From positions 1 through 20,081 of the IMG/VR virus record IMGVR_UViG_3300034092_004203: 20,081 nt of DNA; one strand, written 5' to 3'. Position 1 is the stretch's first letter; every line of letters starts with the position of its first letter. This DNA comes from a virus. The position numbers and the translations under genes were made by a program. Below, piece after piece: positions 2,424 to 19,652 of the stretch. The notes under the pieces were generated by a model. That model worked only from the letters and a program-made list of their open reading frames with translations, was not told the origin of the DNA and made no database searches.

Positions 2424-3659
2424 TCAAATATCTTCAAGCAAGGCGAACCACTGCCTTCCAAACCCCGCCGGAATCGGCCTCCGGTAATTCGTCTCAATCA
2501 CCTTCGGGGAATTTCCCATCCGCTCCGCCGTCCGGTTGTAATCATTCCCGGAAAGCTGTAACGCATAGGTGATCGCCGAGTGCCGGAGAACATCCGCCGG
2601 CCATGCCATCCCCATCGATCTCGCCAGCTTCGAAAGCTCCTCCCGCGCCCGCGTGAGACACACCCGATCCGTCGCCTCCGGAGCGTGAGTTTCCTGCCAG
2701 CGCGTAAAAAAGGCCAACACCTCCGCCTCCAAGGGAACCCACCGCTCCCGCGCCGTTTTCCCCGCCACATCCGGATCCAGATGCAGCATCCCATGATCCA
2801 GATCCATCGACTCCCACCGAATCTTGCAGCACTCCGATGGACGGCATCCCACCCACCCAGCCATGACCAGATAGGATAGATATCGCGGGCAGTCCTTCAG
2901 CACCCGCGCCAAGAACCGTTTCCCCTGGGTCGGAGTGAAAATTTCCGGAGCCTTATCCGGCAATCGTGGCCTCTTAACCGCCGCCGTCGGCAATGGCCGC
3001 GCCTCCGGCCACATCCCCAGCGTCCGACACCGCGCGAAAAACGTCCCCGCCTGGGTCAGCCGGTTACGCGCCGTGCGGATGGATTTCCCCACCTCGTAAA
3101 CAAACCGCTCCACATCCTCCCGCGTAACCTCCGCCAACCGCTTCTCCGGCATCAGCCGCCCCATGTGATCGAGCGCCACCCGCATCGTGTTTCGCGTAGC
3201 CCCGCGCGAGTGATCATACTCCGCCCGCACGATCCGCAACGCCTCCGCCAACGTGCAATCCATCACAGCCCCCGGACCGGAAACCATGAAATAATCCACA
3301 GCCTCCCGCAACCGTCCCGCCGATCCCGCCCGCTCGGAGGCCGCCATCATCTCTGAAACCATCCTGCCCAGATCCAAGCCCTGCGCCGCCGCCAGCGATT
3401 TCAGCGCATCCATCGCCTCCGCCTCGCCCGCCTTCACCCACCGCTCGCCCGTCCCCCTGGCGAGCTTCCGCGCCTTTTCCCCCGCCCACTCCATCGCATC
3501 ACTCTCCGTCCCCCGCGTCGTTTTTTTCCAGGCACCGCCCTCCCGCCAACGAATCGAAAACCGCCCATCCGCCCGCCGGTCAACCATCACCCCCACCCCC
3601 TCAAAAGCCACCCGCCGTGGATAACTCTCCCCCGCTCCCATCTTCTTCTTCGCAGCCAT
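2424..3659 (-). CDS. int: Tyrosine-recombinase phage integrase
   Basis: The protein has 411 residues and would integrate and excise the phage at the attP site upstream of it. An N-terminal arm-binding-like region (about 20-70, IRWREGGAWKKTTRG) is followed by a core-binding SAM-like domain (about 135-230) and a catalytic domain (about 240-400). Visible catalytic residues are Arg273 (GCRPSE), Lys301 in the beta-hairpin (GKTARERWVPL), Arg359 (DVLRHSAITYAL) and the nucleophile Tyr392 (ETNYRRP). Two common active-site positions differ: Asp356 replaces the His of HxxR, and Asn383 (MGNSP) replaces the usual His or Trp. Related integrases I recall also vary at these sites, so I expect it to be active. 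The ATG at 3659 is directly downstream of the att repeats, which suggests that integrase binding could affect its own expression. Confidence 0.93.
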   Translation of the reverse strand: MAAKKKMGAGESYPRRVAFEGVGVMVDRRADGRFSIRWREGGAWKKTTRGTESDAMEWAGEKARKLARGTGERWVKAGEAEAMDALKSLAAAQGLDLGRMVSEMMAASERAGSAGRLREAVDYFMVSGPGAVMDCTLAEALRIVRAEYDHSRGATRNTMRVALDHMGRLMPEKRLAEVTREDVERFVYEVGKSIRTARNRLTQAGTFFARCRTLGMWPEARPLPTAAVKRPRLPDKAPEIFTPTQGKRFLARVLKDCPRYLSYLVMAGWVGCRPSECCKIRWESMDLDHGMLHLDPDVAGKTARERWVPLEAEVLAFFTRWQETHAPEATDRVCLTRAREELSKLARSMGMAWPADVLRHSAITYALQLSGNDYNRTAERMGNSPKVIETNYRRPIPAGFGRQWFALLEDI

Positions 3660-3679
3660 AAAAAACCCCTAACCCAATC

Positions 3680-3704
3680 TGACACCAAATGACACCAAAA
3701 AAAG
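3680..3704 (+). repeat. Tandem arm-type repeats, integrase side of attP
   Basis: Two copies of TGACACCAAA lie head to tail with a 10-bp period, one turn of the DNA helix. The second copy extends to TGACACCAAAAAAAG. They lie between the integrase start and the att core and are probable integrase arm-binding sites. Confidence 0.65.
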
Positions 3705-3705
3705 A

Positions 3706-3734
3706 CCCCATTTTGCCCCATTTTACCCCATTAT
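3706..3734 (+). repeat. Three tandem 10-bp CCCCATTTT repeats in attP
   Basis: CCCCATTTTG, CCCCATTTTA and CCCCATTAT follow each other at 3706, 3716 and 3726. The 10-bp phasing puts each copy on the same face of the helix, as expected for a protein array. The set lies between the TGACACC repeats and the core and covers the probable integrase promoter region. It could bind an excisionase, a host bending protein or the integrase. The protein bound is unknown. Confidence 0.6.
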
Positions 3735-3761
3735 GACCAAAACCAAAAACCGCACCCCAAC

Positions 3762-3795
3762 AAAAAACCCTTGAATCTAAAAGGATTCAAGGGTT
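3762..3795 (-). terminator. Rho-independent terminator between tRNA-Gly end and integrase
   Basis: On the minus strand a perfect 12-bp stem (arms AACCCTTGAATC and GATTCAAGGGTT, at 3784-3795 and 3766-3777) encloses a 6-nt loop and is followed by a T run. It lies 6 nt beyond the CCA of the tRNA-Gly fragment and upstream of the integrase gene on the same strand. After integration it would end tRNA-Gly transcription before it reached int. Confidence 0.85.
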
Positions 3796-3801
3796 GGAAA
3801 A

Positions 3802-3824
3802 TGGAGCGGGCGATGAGATTCGAA
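3802..3824 (-). other. tRNA-Gly 3' end fragment (att core)
   Basis: Read on the minus strand, the 23 nt correspond to tRNA positions 54-76: T-loop TTCGAAT, T-stem 3' strand CTCAT, acceptor 3' strand CGCCCGC, discriminator T and an encoded CCA. The CCCGC-T-CCA ending is characteristic of bacterial tRNA-Gly, whose acceptor begins GCGGG. The sequence upstream (3825 onward) cannot form the other T-stem strand or the anticodon arm, so this is only the part a phage carries to restore the tRNA on integration. Confidence 0.82.
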
Positions 3825-3887
3825 ACCTTCGGGGAATCTTTGTGGAATAAGCCTTTACGCTCTTTTTTTAGGGTAATGACTCCAACT

Positions 3888-3902
3888 TGACACCAAAAAA
3901 AG
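3888..3902 (+). repeat. Arm-type repeat, distal side of attP
   Basis: TGACACCAAAAAAAG is identical to 3690-3704 and has the same orientation, but lies on the other side of the tRNA-Gly core. It abuts the end of the minus-strand gene 3906-4373. Confidence 0.65.
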
Positions 3903-3905
3903 GCA

Positions 3906-4373
3906 TTAAAAACCGTCGATTTTTGCTTTTTCTGCATCGGCTTTTTTCTCCGCAGTGAAGTCCAAATACTCCTTCGTCATCACAAAAAGACGACTTTCCA
4001 CCGTGTCATATGAAGCGGCTCTTGAAGCGTTTGGGGTGAAGAACTTCCGATTTATGAAATCGATGTCATCTGAGGCGGTCCACTCCTGGCCGCCTCCGTT
4101 CGCCTTGAGCAGGGTCGCGATCTCAACGTCGCTGATCTTTGGGTTAAAAATGCCGCCGGGTTCTTTTTTATGCTGGAAACTCAAAGCTCCCGCCCGCCCT
4201 TTGTGAAACATAACCGCAATCATCCAACCTTCTTTTTCAAAGGCCATGACTCCATTCTCGTTATCGACTTCGATTTCTTTTCCGTAGCGCTTTCGGCATT
4301 CTTGAACCGTTTCACCAAGCCGCGCCGATGCGGGAGAAGCCATCGCCAAAACCAGAAAAAGAAAAACCTTCAT
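3906..4373 (-). CDS. Small secreted protein, possible lysogenic-conversion (moron) gene
   Basis: The protein has 155 residues. Residues 1-17 are a short Sec signal (MKVFLFLVLAMASPASA). The mature part starts RLGETVQECRKRYGKE and continues as a soluble protein with an alternating hydrophobic pattern and no recognised catalytic motif. The opening RLGET..C..RYG resembles small secreted proteins that I associate with Verrucomicrobiota genomes; their function is not known to me. The gene lies between attP and the antirepressor, on the lysogenic strand, and looks less GC-rich than the lytic genes. These traits fit a prophage-expressed accessory gene acquired separately, which is inference. No Shine-Dalgarno sequence is visible, and a hairpin includes the start codon. 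Confidence 0.7.
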   Translation of the reverse strand: MKVFLFLVLAMASPASARLGETVQECRKRYGKEIEVDNENGVMAFEKEGWMIAVMFHKGRAGALSFQHKKEPGGIFNPKISDVEIATLLKANGGGQEWTASDDIDFINRKFFTPNASRAASYDTVESRLFVMTKEYLDFTAEKKADAEKAKIDGF

Positions 4374-4401
4374 GCCCGCGTGTAGCTGACATGAAGGTTT
4401 T
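4363..4401 (-). terminator. Inverted repeat with T-rich tail spanning a start codon
   Basis: Arms AAAACCTTCATG (4363-4374) and CATGAAGGTTTT (4390-4401) are perfect 12-bp complements around a 15-nt loop. On the minus strand the stem is followed by TTCTTTTTC, so it could terminate the antirepressor transcript. The 3' arm also contains the ATG of the secreted-protein gene. A stem here would hide that start codon in read-through RNA. Confidence 0.55.
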
Positions 4402-4419
4402 GGGTCAAGCCGAAAAAAA

Positions 4420-5145
4420 TCAGCGGATGCTTACGATCTTCTCGCAGGTGCGCTCGTAGGTGGCGAATCTGGCGTTGATGCGGAGGAAGTGGCCGGCTCT
4501 TACCAGGCTTTCCATGAGGGTGCCGAGAGCGCATTCCCGCCCTCTGCCCGCCTTGATTTTCATGATGCGGTGAGTGGTGGGGAGTATTGAGAAAAGATCC
4601 TTGATCCTGTATTGGCTGCCGTGGGAGGTGGAGGCGAGCAGATCCCGGGTTTCCTCGTCTCCCATGCCGGATTCGTTCACTTCCCGTAGCTCCAAGTCCT
4701 TCCGCTCGCGGGTGGAAAGCGGGGGGAATGCGGAGAGGGCGAGCTTTGCCGCGTCCCTCGATTCCATGCCCATGTCCATGAGTTCCTTCACAAAGACCGT
4801 GATCGCGTGTTCCCGCGTGCCGTAGATGCCGCGTTTGCGAATCGAAGGGAGGACTTCCGTGAATACCCATTTCTGAAAAGCTTTCGCCTCCGCCTTGCGG
4901 GATTTGAACACGAGCCGGTAAAGGCCGGGTTCATTTACGAGCGCCATCTGCTGACTTCCGCCAAGGGTGTCGGCATTAGCGACCCCCTTTTCGTCTTCTT
5001 CAAGCGTGGTGAGCGCATCGCGGTTGTTCGCAATGCCGAGGACTGCGCAAACGTCTTTGGCGACAAACCAAGGAGAGCCGCCGATAATTGTGGTTCTGAG
5101 TGTAGATTCCCCAAAAAGAAACGGAGTGATGGTGTTGGTGTTCAT
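4420..5145 (-). CDS. BRO-N family phage antirepressor
   Basis: The protein has 241 residues. Residues about 8-109 match the BRO-N/Ant N-terminal pattern: LRTTIIGGSPWFVAKDVCAVLGIAN, LEEDEKGVANADTLGG, ALVNEPGLYRLVFKSRKAEAKAFQKWVFTEVLPSIRKRGIYG. The C-terminal 130 residues are helical and charged, and I do not recognise them. Members of this family bind DNA or phage repressors and promote lytic development. I chose the ATG at 5145 because an upstream in-frame extension to 5277 would overlap the repressor gene and lacks family similarity. It follows the repressor by 61 nt on the same strand, so both are probably made from one transcript, which is an unusual way to express an antirepressor. The BRO-N call is solid. 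The target is inferred. Confidence 0.87.
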   Translation of the reverse strand: MNTNTITPFLFGESTLRTTIIGGSPWFVAKDVCAVLGIANNRDALTTLEEDEKGVANADTLGGSQQMALVNEPGLYRLVFKSRKAEAKAFQKWVFTEVLPSIRKRGIYGTREHAITVFVKELMDMGMESRDAAKLALSAFPPLSTRERKDLELREVNESGMGDEETRDLLASTSHGSQYRIKDLFSILPTTHRIMKIKAGRGRECALGTLMESLVRAGHFLRINARFATYERTCEKIVSIR

Positions 5146-5206
5146 GTTTGTGTGGTTGGTGAGAGGTTTCAGTTTTTGTTGCAATAGAGACACGGGTGGA
5201 ATGGGG

Positions 5207-5677
5207 TCATCCGTTTCCCTCAGAGCTAGTGCGGGAGTAGTTGGGATAGGAGGTTTCGTCCTCCGCCACCTTCTCAATAGCTTGGAGGTTTGGAAGAAAA
5301 GGCATGCCGAGATCTAAGGCTGTCTGCCTGGCTTGCTCATCATAGGCCAGATAGTCCCGTATCCTGTCTGCGATCCAAGAAGAAGGCGTCATTCCGCGCT
5401 TGGTCGCAATGATGGTGATAACCCGCCATTGCATAGGAGTTAGCTCAAGGACGTTCTTGAGCTGGGGCTGGTTCACGATCTCGAAAGGCATCTTTCCAAA
5501 AAAGTAGAGATCTAGAAGGGATTTTTCTGCATCTGAAAGGGCTCGCTTGCCTCCCTCCACTTTAGAAATCGCGTTGATCGGTATGCCAAGTAGGTCTGCG
5601 ATTTCCGTTTGATTCATCCCTTTTGAGCCTCGGATGAAGCGCAAATTTTCTGCGGTGACTTCGGTGTATTCGTTCAT
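5207..5677 (-). CDS. XRE-family transcriptional repressor (lysogeny regulator)
   Basis: The protein has 156 residues. Residues about 8-60 form an XRE/Cro-CI helix-turn-helix: LRFIRGSKGMNQTEIADLLGIPINAISKVEGGKRALSDAEKSLLDL. Residues 80-156 are helical and of unknown fold. No S24/LexA-type Ser-Lys protease region is apparent and the protein is short for one, so RecA-driven self-cleavage looks unlikely. It is transcribed divergently from the early operon across a 97-bp region holding several CGCAA half-sites, which is the expected place for its operators. It would shut off the early genes at 5775 onward and probably regulate itself. It is the first gene of the minus-strand lysogeny operon. Confidence 0.85.
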   Translation of the reverse strand: MNEYTEVTAENLRFIRGSKGMNQTEIADLLGIPINAISKVEGGKRALSDAEKSLLDLYFFGKMPFEIVNQPQLKNVLELTPMQWRVITIIATKRGMTPSSWIADRIRDYLAYDEQARQTALDLGMPFLPNLQAIEKVAEDETSYPNYSRTSSEGNG

Positions 5678-5709
5678 TTCGAGAGAACCTTAAAAAAAAA
5701 ATTACCAAA

Positions 5710-5769
5710 TCGCAAGTTTTTTCTTGTCGCAACTTCCTAAATGGTATTTTATCGCTTGCGTAATCGCAA
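5710..5769. promoter_or_regulatory. Divergent control region with CGCAA operator half-sites
   Basis: CGCAA occurs at 5711-5715, 5728-5732 and 5765-5769, with the inverted form TTGCG at 5756-5760. The last two make a near-perfect palindrome, TTGCGTAATCGCAA (5756-5769), 5 bp before the first early ATG. On the minus strand TTGCGA (5769-5764) and TACCAT (5746-5741) are 17 bp apart and could be a weak repressor promoter. The early promoter is not clear, though TATTTT at 5745-5750 is a possible -10. Binding by the divergent XRE repressor is inferred. Confidence 0.6.
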
Positions 5770-5774
5770 ACGAC

Positions 5775-5963
5775 ATGACCGCCACCAACGCAAAATCATC
5801 AGCCACCCCAGCCAGCCAAACCAAAATCGTCATCGACCTCGCCGATGAGCTTACCGCCGAGGAAATCGCCGAGTTCGAGAAATCCGCGCAAGCCGCCGGT
5901 GCCGAGAACCTCACCGAGCATTTCCTCAACCTCACCCTCCGCCAAGAGACCTCCGCCGCCTAA
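5775..5963 (+). CDS. Small early protein, unknown function
   Basis: The protein has 62 residues and starts at the ATG at 5775; a TTG further upstream would run through the operator. It has a Thr/Ala/Ser-rich N-terminus followed by KIVIDLADELTAEEIAEFEKSAQAAGAENLTEHFLNLTL. The pattern of a short beta strand and then two amphipathic helices could suit a small dimerising regulator or ribbon-helix-helix-like protein, but I do not recognise a family. As the first gene after the lysogeny switch, it is the gene most directly exposed to repressor control. A role in early regulation is possible and unproven. Confidence 0.7.
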   Translation: MTATNAKSSATPASQTKIVIDLADELTAEEIAEFEKSAQAAGAENLTEHFLNLTLRQETSAA

Positions 5964-17844: not shown

Positions 17845-18129
17845 ATGGCGGTCTCCCGACTCATGATCGACGCATACAAGCGTCACTACACCATCGCGCA
17901 GCTCTCCGCCGCGCAAAAACAAGCTCTGGCCGACCGCACCTCCGGCGTCCAGGTCACCCAGATCAATTTTCAGGATGGCGGAGGCTCCGGCGTCATGATC
18001 TCCGGCGATCCGAACGAGATCATCGAAATCTGCGAACTCGCCCTCCAAGAAATGGAGGAAACCCGCGAAGTCGGCGTGAAACCCCTCGCCGCCGCCATGA
18101 ATTTCAGCCAACGCCGCTTTGAAACATGA
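17845..18129 (+). CDS. Head-tail joining protein candidate (gpW position)
   Basis: The protein has 94 residues. A helical N-terminus (MIDAYKRHYTIAQLSAAQKQALADRTSG) is followed by two strands (VQVTQINFQDGGGSGVMISGDP) and a helix (NEIIEICELALQEME). Helix-strand-strand-helix is the layout of lambda gpW, whose gene also lies between the large terminase and portal genes, and the size is similar. gpW completes the head and lets the tail attach. Sequence identity to gpW is not obvious by eye, so the call leans on order and pattern. The stop overlaps the portal start as ATGA. Confidence 0.55.
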   Translation: MAVSRLMIDAYKRHYTIAQLSAAQKQALADRTSGVQVTQINFQDGGGSGVMISGDPNEIIEICELALQEMEETREVGVKPLAAAMNFSQRRFET

Positions 18130-19652
18130 GTATCCCCGCCCTTACATCATCCCAGAAACGCCGCGCCCGCCGCAACCGCGCCGCCGCCCACGGAGTCCCC
18201 GCCGCCGATTACCACGCAGCCGCCACCGCCCTCCAAGGCTTCGGCGGCTTCGGCGGCTCCGGTTATGACGGCGGGAACCAATCCACCCGCCGAAGCTGGA
18301 TCTACTGGCCGACCCTCGACACAAAGCGCGAGCTCTCCAGCTACTCCCGCACGGAGATGCTCAAAAAATCCCGCTCCCTCCGCGCCAACACCGGCCTCCC
18401 CAACCGCATCTGCGGCGGCCTCGCCGACATGATCGGCTACCTCCAACCGATCTCCATGTCCGGCGATGAAAAATGGGACGATCTCGCCGATGGACACTGG
18501 AACGACATGACCTCCGAAGCCGGAGTAATCGACGCCGCCGGAAATTTCGATATCAAGCGGATGCAGATCGAGATGCACAAAGCCGCCTTCGGAGACGGCG
18601 ACGTCCTCCCCCTCGCCATCCGGAATTCCTCGGACGGAATCATGATCGCGCTCTACGACGCCGCCCAGCTCGCCTCGCCCGAAGGACAATACGGCAAAGA
18701 CTGGATCGATGGCGTGAAGATCAACAAATTCCGCCGCCACACCGCCTACGGAATCAAAGACGACGACGGGAAAGTCCGCACCTACTCCGCCGCCGATGCG
18801 CTCTACTACTCATTCCCGCAGCAAATCGGGCAAATCCGCCCACCCACCGTCCTCCGCCATGCCCTCAATCACATGGTCGATATCAGCGAGATCCTCGCCG
18901 ATGTGAAACTTACCATCAAGGTCGCGAGCCAGATGGGGCTCTACCTCAAGAATAACGAAATGAACGCCGGTGGCCAGCTCGGTCCGATGGCGATTCAAGG
19001 TGGCCTCCGCAACGAAAAACACCCGCTCGCCACCGGATCCGAAGTCCCCGAAAAGGAAATCACGGTCAACGACATCTACCGCGCCGAGGGCGGAGTCGCG
19101 AACCTCCCAAAAGGAACCGACGTCGGGATCCTTCACGACGCCCGCCCGCACCCGAACCAAATCAACCTCATCGAGCACCTCGTCCGCGACATCGCCTGGG
19201 GAGTCGGAGTCGCCCCGGAAATCCTCTGGAACATCGAGACCCTCCGCGGTGCGAACAACCGCCTAGTCAACGCCGATCTCAACCGCTGGATTTCCTGCCG
19301 CCACCTCCGCCTCCGAGCCTGGATGAAGCGTTTCCGCTCCATGTGGATCGCCAACGAAATCACCGCCGGGCGCCTCCCCGAGCCTCCCGGAAAAGCGGAA
19401 TTCTGGCGCTGCACTTGGCTCCCGCAAGGCTCACTCACCGCCGACAAAGGCCGCGAGGGCAAGCTCAACATCGAGCTGATCCATAACAACATGCGCTCCC
19501 TCGCCACCCACTTCGGAGAAGAAGGCTCCGACTGGCAATCCGAGCTACGCCAAATTTCCAAAGAGCGCCGTGCCATGCGCGAGCTCGATCTCAATTTCAA
19601 AGGCCTCGCCCCCGAGGAACCCGCACCCGCCCGCCAAGAACTCGAAGAATAA
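18126..19652 (+). CDS. Portal protein, lambda GpB family
   Basis: The protein has 508 residues. It lies after the terminase and before the S49 protease, as in lambda. Pattern features include SYSRTEMLKKSRSLRANTGLPNRICGGLADMIG (about 75-107), a central region with HKAAFGDGDVLPL and LYDAAQLASPEG, and DIAWGVGVAPEILWNIETLRGANNRLVNADLNRWI (about 357-391) near the helical core. The start is an ATGA overlap at 18126, followed by a basic segment (SSQKRRARRNRAAAHG) and a Gly-rich stretch. A dodecamer of this protein would form the DNA channel and the docking site for the terminase. The size matches GpB (533 residues). Confidence 0.88.
   Translation: MSIPALTSSQKRRARRNRAAAHGVPAADYHAAATALQGFGGFGGSGYDGGNQSTRRSWIYWPTLDTKRELSSYSRTEMLKKSRSLRANTGLPNRICGGLADMIGYLQPISMSGDEKWDDLADGHWNDMTSEAGVIDAAGNFDIKRMQIEMHKAAFGDGDVLPLAIRNSSDGIMIALYDAAQLASPEGQYGKDWIDGVKINKFRRHTAYGIKDDDGKVRTYSAADALYYSFPQQIGQIRPPTVLRHALNHMVDISEILADVKLTIKVASQMGLYLKNNEMNAGGQLGPMAIQGGLRNEKHPLATGSEVPEKEITVNDIYRAEGGVANLPKGTDVGILHDARPHPNQINLIEHLVRDIAWGVGVAPEILWNIETLRGANNRLVNADLNRWISCRHLRLRAWMKRFRSMWIANEITAGRLPEPPGKAEFWRCTWLPQGSLTADKGREGKLNIELIHNNMRSLATHFGEEGSDWQSELRQISKERRAMRELDLNFKGLAPEEPAPARQELEE

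Follow-up and report, generated by a model that had tools for sequence, protein, structure and literature searches.

A short piece of a tRNA gene lying between phage genes, next to an integrase gene (int), raises the question of whether it marks an attachment site and, if so, which host gene it targets and in what form the DNA was captured. We addressed this question for IMG/VR record IMGVR_UViG_3300034092_004203, which is classed as linear and was analysed over its whole length of 20,081 bp (hereinafter designated the window). An earlier reading made from the letters alone (hereinafter designated the sequence-only reading) had noticed identical 15-mers around a tRNA-Gly 3′ end and had taken the region for a complete attP-like site flanked by phage genes on either side. 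Our analysis leads to the conclusion, with a probability of about 0.92, that a temperate phage of Verrucomicrobiales has its attP at 3660-3905 and uses the host tRNA-Gly(GCC) gene. The site is mostly ordinary in kind, and its most interesting detail is a predicted transcription stop signal carried by the phage itself.

The attP core is the 3′ end of tRNA-Gly(GCC)

The central element of the region is a 23-nt core, TTCGAATCTCATCGCCCGCTCCA, identical to the part of tRNA-Gly(GCC) that runs from the T-loop through the CCA end and separated from the int start by 142 bp (Table 1). The tRNA-Gly 3′ end that the sequence-only reading had placed between the 15-mers is real over these 23 nt, the gene beside it matches integrase families in both Pfam and PHROG, and an ARAGORN scan of the window finds no tRNA gene, in agreement with the earlier statement that no intact tRNA is present. 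A genome scan for the 23-mer followed by TT returned at least 119 stretches in Verrucomicrobiota, Alphaproteobacteria and others, nearly all of which are the 3′ end of tRNA-Gly(GCC). Searches with the core lengthened to an exact 34-mer or 28-mer gave no matches, because hosts share only 23 to 31 bases. Naming the host from the core alone was rejected since the 23-mer is common to Alphaproteobacteria and others, and the host assignment therefore rests on a lysogen, G651, described below. The host search suggested by the sequence-only reading thus came out in its favour: the core ends tRNA-Gly(GCC) in more than 100 contigs and the lysogen is split there. At the window core itself there is no complete tRNA-Gly accompanied by host genes.

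Truncated tRNA-Gly 3′ ends were also seen in contigs of the 23-mer scan (L100, L109, L112, L125, L132, L137, L140, L143 and L163), several of them sharing sequence from the anticodon region onward; these are probably the attR of other elements with another crossover position.

The gene content to the left and right of the site places phage genes on both flanks. On the left, the integrase is accompanied by small genes that only their location suggests as lysis genes and that have no family matches in Pfam or PHROG. On the right, a 155-aa ORF (no family in Pfam or PHROG) is followed by genes for a BRO-N antirepressor, a helix-turn-helix (HTH) regulator, replication proteins, terminase and a lambda-family portal. 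A promoter scan of 3600-5800 returned a single weak match, at chance level. The region therefore combines a core identical to a host tRNA 3′ end, an adjacent int, phage genes on both sides and no intact tRNA, to which the following sections add arm-type repeats flanking the core and, in the relative G651 rather than in this phage, attL and attR at the same core.

Table 1. Coordinates of features in the window and of two elements at rnpB in related genomes
Feature	Position	Strand	Basis or remark
Tyrosine integrase, 411 aa; predicted arm-binding, core-binding and catalytic domains	2424..3659	-	Pfam PF00589, PHROG phrog_1, fold search
P′ arm: two direct GGTGTCA, predicted Int arm-binding sites	3680-3686, 3690-3696 (3680..3696)	-	10 bp apart
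15-mer TGACACCAAAAAAAG, first copy, P′ side	3690..3704	+	exact match
CCCCATTTT-type repeat, three copies, 10-bp period, inside P′ arm	3706..3734	+	sequence
Predicted phage-borne intrinsic terminator: 12-bp hairpin (stem 3795-3766) and T tract	3756..3795	-	counterparts in G002 and G651
attP core, 3′ 23 nt of tRNA-Gly(GCC)	3802..3824	-	exact match in host genomes, G002, and G651 attL and attR
P arm: GGAGTCA (3877-3883) and GGTGTCA (3888-3894)	3877..3894	-	11 bp apart; same core-relative positions in G002 and G651
15-mer TGACACCAAAAAAAG, second copy, P side	3888..3902	+	exact match
155-aa ORF, attP flank distal to int	3906..4373	-	38% identical homologue in the corresponding position of G002
BRO-N antirepressor-like gene	4420..5145	-	Pfam, PHROG
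HTH transcriptional regulator, likely lysogeny repressor	5207..5677	-	Pfam, PHROG
Terminase large subunit (GpA type), right-flank phage gene	15535..17301	+	Pfam, PHROG; 54% identical in lysogen G651
Portal protein, lambda family	18126..19652	+	Pfam, PHROG
Apparent rnpB prophage, ~40 kb (L250/L276-L278)	G616:C6:204600-248600		
Apparent rnpB prophage, ~40 kb (L251/L279-L281)	G536:C6:116000-158800		

A related lysogen is split at the same 23 nt

An integrase query against viral contigs and phage records returned no relatives; a terminase query led to the two described here. Phage G002 (IMGVR_UViG_3300049015_000042, 41,226 bp), whose large terminase subunit (TerL), portal and integrase are 51%, 63% and 31% identical to those of the window, carries the identical 23-mer, flanked by its integrase on one side and by a homologue of the 155-aa ORF on the other. 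G651, a member of the order Verrucomicrobiales, is a lysogen (TerL 54% and integrase 34% identical). Its contig C51 contains attL, in which a complete tRNA-Gly(GCC) gene (20113-20187, minus strand) is followed by a terminator-like hairpin, an arm pair and int, and its contig C2 contains attR, in which phage genes up to 18216 are followed by the 23-mer (18378-18400) and then by host prmA. The portal and downstream genes lie on C51 and the terminase and replication genes on C2, and this complementary gene content, which is the only join between the separate attL and attR contigs, identifies the two as one prophage of ~38.5 kb. Homology between attL and attR spans exactly 23 nt and stops at both ends of the 23-mer. 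Empty sites with tRNA-Gly next to prmA are present in two Akkermansiaceae MAGs, L091 and L101, and also in L095; compared with the G651 protein, the PrmA proteins of L091, L101 and L095 are 83%, 71% and 84% identical, in that order. Phages of this kind integrate at the 23-nt core, for which G651 is direct evidence, and the comparison suggests that the hosts are Akkermansiaceae or close relatives of these. The nearest lysogen among the genomes searched is G651; none of this very phage was found.

These comparisons bear on two other readings of the core. It might be a degenerate or coincidental tRNA fragment, the remnant of an old insertion without a role for this integrase; tRNA 3′ fragments are common remnants, and the scanned genome loci do contain truncated tRNA-Gly ends. 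However, three phages share the exact 23 nt, their location and the arm geometry around them despite integrases only 31-34% identical to the window's, and the 23 nt form the integration junction in G651, which leaves this reading with hardly any chance. The same negligible weight falls to an assembly artefact in which attL-side and attR-side phage DNA were misjoined via the repeat: short repeats may collapse in metagenome assembly, but 23 nt offers little sequence for a wrong join, G002 independently has the same order of int, core and 155-aa ORF, and the correct excised product has exactly the structure of the window. The flanking gene families, together with G002 and G651, uphold the earlier identification of a complete attP.

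Many Verrucomicrobiales loci have tRNA-Gly(GCC) followed by prmA, often with no terminator between them (L091, L095, L101 and L234:18378-19306), and integration at tRNA-Gly would part the two genes. A lysogeny operon reading through attR into prmA in all relatives was considered and rejected, the last G651 phage gene being oppositely oriented. A bacterial PH-domain (bPH_2) gene adjoins attR in the G651 prophage (L234:17704-18216), and G002 encodes a similar-looking protein near its attP (5232-5729).

Form of the phage DNA

With its core internal between phage genes, the window is unintegrated phage DNA and not one prophage end, as the sequence-only reading had recognized. Its further claim of a circular or permuted genome or a tandem-prophage junction goes beyond what the record supports: the 20,081-bp record contains no terminal direct repeat of at least 11 bases and is a fragment of about half a genome when compared with G002 (41.2 kb) and the G651 prophage. 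Phage DNA that is linearised at another place, as lambda DNA is, likewise has attP in its interior. Any unintegrated copy, linear or circular, has an internal attP, so circularity does not follow from it.

Assembly over excised, replicating or packaged DNA explains the window without tandem prophages. A polylysogen junction, with two prophage copies side by side in one host, would give an identical local sequence, yet the window and G002 are independent contigs that share the same layout without host sequence, for which excised, replicating or packaged DNA is the simpler source, and G651, the only lysogen found, carries a single prophage bounded by one attL and one attR. We give such a junction a slim chance and treat the window as unintegrated phage DNA.

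Four arm-type sites flank the core

The 15-mers described by the sequence-only reading are exact: TGACACCAAAAAAAG occurs at two positions only in the record, and a partial copy, TGACACCAAA, recurs at 3680. Of 1000 dinucleotide-preserving shuffles of the 247-bp intergenic region, 1 reached a direct repeat of 15 bp, and elsewhere in the window no stretch of 247 bp holds one. Each 15-mer consists of a 7-bp arm motif and an A-run, and we rejected the pair as att repeats or attachment core in favour of arm-type sites. A fourth copy, TGACTCC at 3877 (GGAGTCA on the minus strand), had been missed earlier and resolves the arms into two pairs, with two sites per arm. The P′ pair is located directly upstream of the int start codon and overlaps the int leader.

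The geometry of these sites is kept between phages and their sequence is not. Read on the tRNA strand, the window has GGTGTCA/GGAGTCA at -70/-59 and GGTGTCA twice at +105/+115, G002 has GGCGTAA at -69/-57 and +128/+138, and G651 has GGTGTAA/GGTGCAA at -70/-58 and GGTGTAA at +104/+114. Arm sequences change along with the integrase and their positions do not, which is the pattern expected if the N-terminal domain of Int reads them, and the 12-member clade of the window integrase commonly has an arm pair at a spacing of 10 shortly before the int start. Judged from sequence, Int is expected to bind the four sites through its N-terminal domain. The motif GGNGTNA was defined post hoc, after the sequence was seen, and its rarity of 0.36 per 300 bp is therefore only a guide. 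The CCCCATTTT-type repeats inside the P′ arm are a possible DNA-bending or accessory-protein site.

A predicted terminator lies between core and int

Along the path of tRNA transcription, the tRNA 3′ end is immediately followed by a hairpin with a T tract, which lies upstream of int. Counterparts of different sequence occupy the same place in G002 and G651, with hairpin energies of -15.6 kcal/mol each as against -17.3 kcal/mol in the window, and between the window and G651 stems a T-A pair has changed to G-C with pairing retained. Hairpins of other sequence but of the same stem-plus-T-tract form, in the same orientation relative to the tRNA, are found in further members of the integrase family (L246, L247, L248, L249 and L252). 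No terminator precedes prmA in L091, L095, L101 or the G651 attR; the stop signal at attL is therefore the phage's and not the host's. A restored tRNA would likely be cut off transcriptionally from int by this terminator. A looser terminator scan returned sites no more numerous than in shuffles.

The hairpin sits within attP, and this position would also fit a part of the recombination site itself, either a cruciform or a site for Int or an accessory protein, with no terminator function. A terminator in every member of the integrase family was rejected, and the same exceptions could be read in favour of a recombination element: there is none in clade members L245 and L251 or in L255, L256 and L263 of the wider family, and that of clade member L250 is weak. 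Against this, the stem-plus-T-tract form and its orientation are kept despite differing sequence in the window, its two phage relatives and the five other loci named above. We consider the recombination element unlikely and favour an intrinsic terminator.

Both catalytic histidines are replaced in the integrase family

The window integrase scores 32.9 bits against Pfam PF00589 (cut-off 27.1), and a fold search with its structural model, itself of modest confidence (pLDDT 70.7, pTM 0.40), retrieved XerA, lambda Int and Tn1549 Int. In this model the N-terminus would form a strand-helix domain, as expected for arm binding. R273, K301, R359 and Y392 are invariant in all 30 integrase sequences compared (the window and 29 relatives). 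Read against XerA, D356 replaces the first catalytic His and N383 the second in the window integrase; across the 30 sequences the first position is Asp or Asn and the second is Asn.

The PF00589 and PHROG matches, the fold and the presence of the Tyr, two Arg and Lys place the protein in the tyrosine recombinase family, and the strict RKHRH pentad is absent, with both catalytic His replaced. The first catalytic His is weakened or lost in other tyrosine recombinase subgroups (PMC8138268, PMC8371274); given that these deviate too, family membership stands even though strict-pentad membership fails. IntBPP-1 and IntDes (PMC8138268) and the SSV1-type and pNOB8-type enzymes (PMC8371274) resemble the window family in a weakened or replaced first His, and IntBPP-1 and IntDes also in possessing an arm-binding domain, which is predicted for the window integrase. 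The window family differs from those subgroups in combining Asp or Asn at the first position with Asn at the second throughout. In the literature we searched, loss of both catalytic His was not found described for tyrosine recombinases. Integrase activity cannot be assumed when both are missing; the family is nevertheless found at real attL and attR junctions.

Relatives of the integrase at other RNA genes

Members of the clade occur next to RNA genes other than tRNA-Gly. Terminator-bearing members are associated with tRNA-Ser (L247, and L249 with a tRNA fragment) and with tmRNA (L246, L248). In L245, L246 and L248, a relative of the integrase immediately follows a complete tmRNA gene and shares its orientation. 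Two further members, L250 (genome G616) and L251 (genome G536), each come immediately after a complete gene for RNase P RNA (rnpB), of which a ~200-nt 3′ fragment recurs in the same orientation 41.0 kb (G616) or 39.6 kb (G536) away. Homology of the fragments begins abruptly within rnpB, and a portal gene (family phrog_113) lies between the copies. The L250 and L251 elements look like prophages integrated inside rnpB. A literature search found no paper with rnpB as attB, which is weak evidence of novelty.

A tentative generalization, to which we give somewhat less than even odds, is that a verrucomicrobial R-K-D/N-R-N-Y integrase clade serves phages that enter the 3′ part of tRNA-Gly, tRNA-Ser, tmRNA and RNase P RNA genes, and that many members bring an attP terminator insulating the repaired RNA gene from int and from its native downstream neighbour.

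Discussion

We propose that Int would carry out recombination between the 23-nt core and its exact counterpart at the 3′ end of the tRNA-Gly(GCC) gene in the host, with the N-terminal domain of Int on the four arm sites, two per side. On the int side (attL) the tRNA would be restored, and the 23-nt fragment would be displaced to the far end, before prmA (attR). The P′ pair overlaps the int leader, so that Int probably represses its own gene through it. The phage terminator between core and int would replace the host sequence downstream of the tRNA, and int would consequently not be read from the tRNA promoter after integration.

In the tRNA-gene systems outlined by Williams 2002 (cited in PMC2951348) and for Islander (PMC4383910), the core is the tRNA 3′ end from the T-loop onward, the tRNA is made whole again on integration and a fragment is displaced, and int adjoins the core. 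The window attP agrees with these systems in its core start, expected tRNA restoration and adjacent int, and is set apart by a Verrucomicrobiales host, its own terminator and two-plus-two arms of changing sequence.

The KplE1 prophage, with intS at argW, has an 'STI' layout of tRNA then int in one orientation, and its int promoter region overlaps attL, through whose sites Int represses its own gene (PMC2951348). The window likewise has the tRNA end preceding int in the same orientation, and by analogy Int autorepression would be expected. It differs in the terminator between tRNA and int, and autorepression is here read from sequence.

ICEKp1, inserted at a tRNA gene 3′ end, displaces the tRNA terminator and drives int from the tRNA promoter, and stem-loops in the int-leader RNA lower the tRNA-int transcripts (PMC13023037). 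Insertion at the tRNA 3′ end with int downstream in the same direction is common to both elements. In the window, however, the arrangement is reversed, the phage supplying a predicted canonical intrinsic terminator directly after the core; the strong terminator-like hairpins of the window, G002 and G651 all stand where an ICEKp1-type element has no terminator between restored tRNA and int.

Our literature search found almost nothing on attP sites of Verrucomicrobiales and nothing on Akkermansia tRNA-Gly prophages. The locus provides a defined set of attP, attB and integrase for phages of this group, which includes Akkermansia. Its altered integrase active site tests which residues tyrosine recombinases can spare, and its attP terminator would represent a testable counter-strategy to the tRNA-promoter capture of ICEKp1, in which the same geometry is used and int is shut off.
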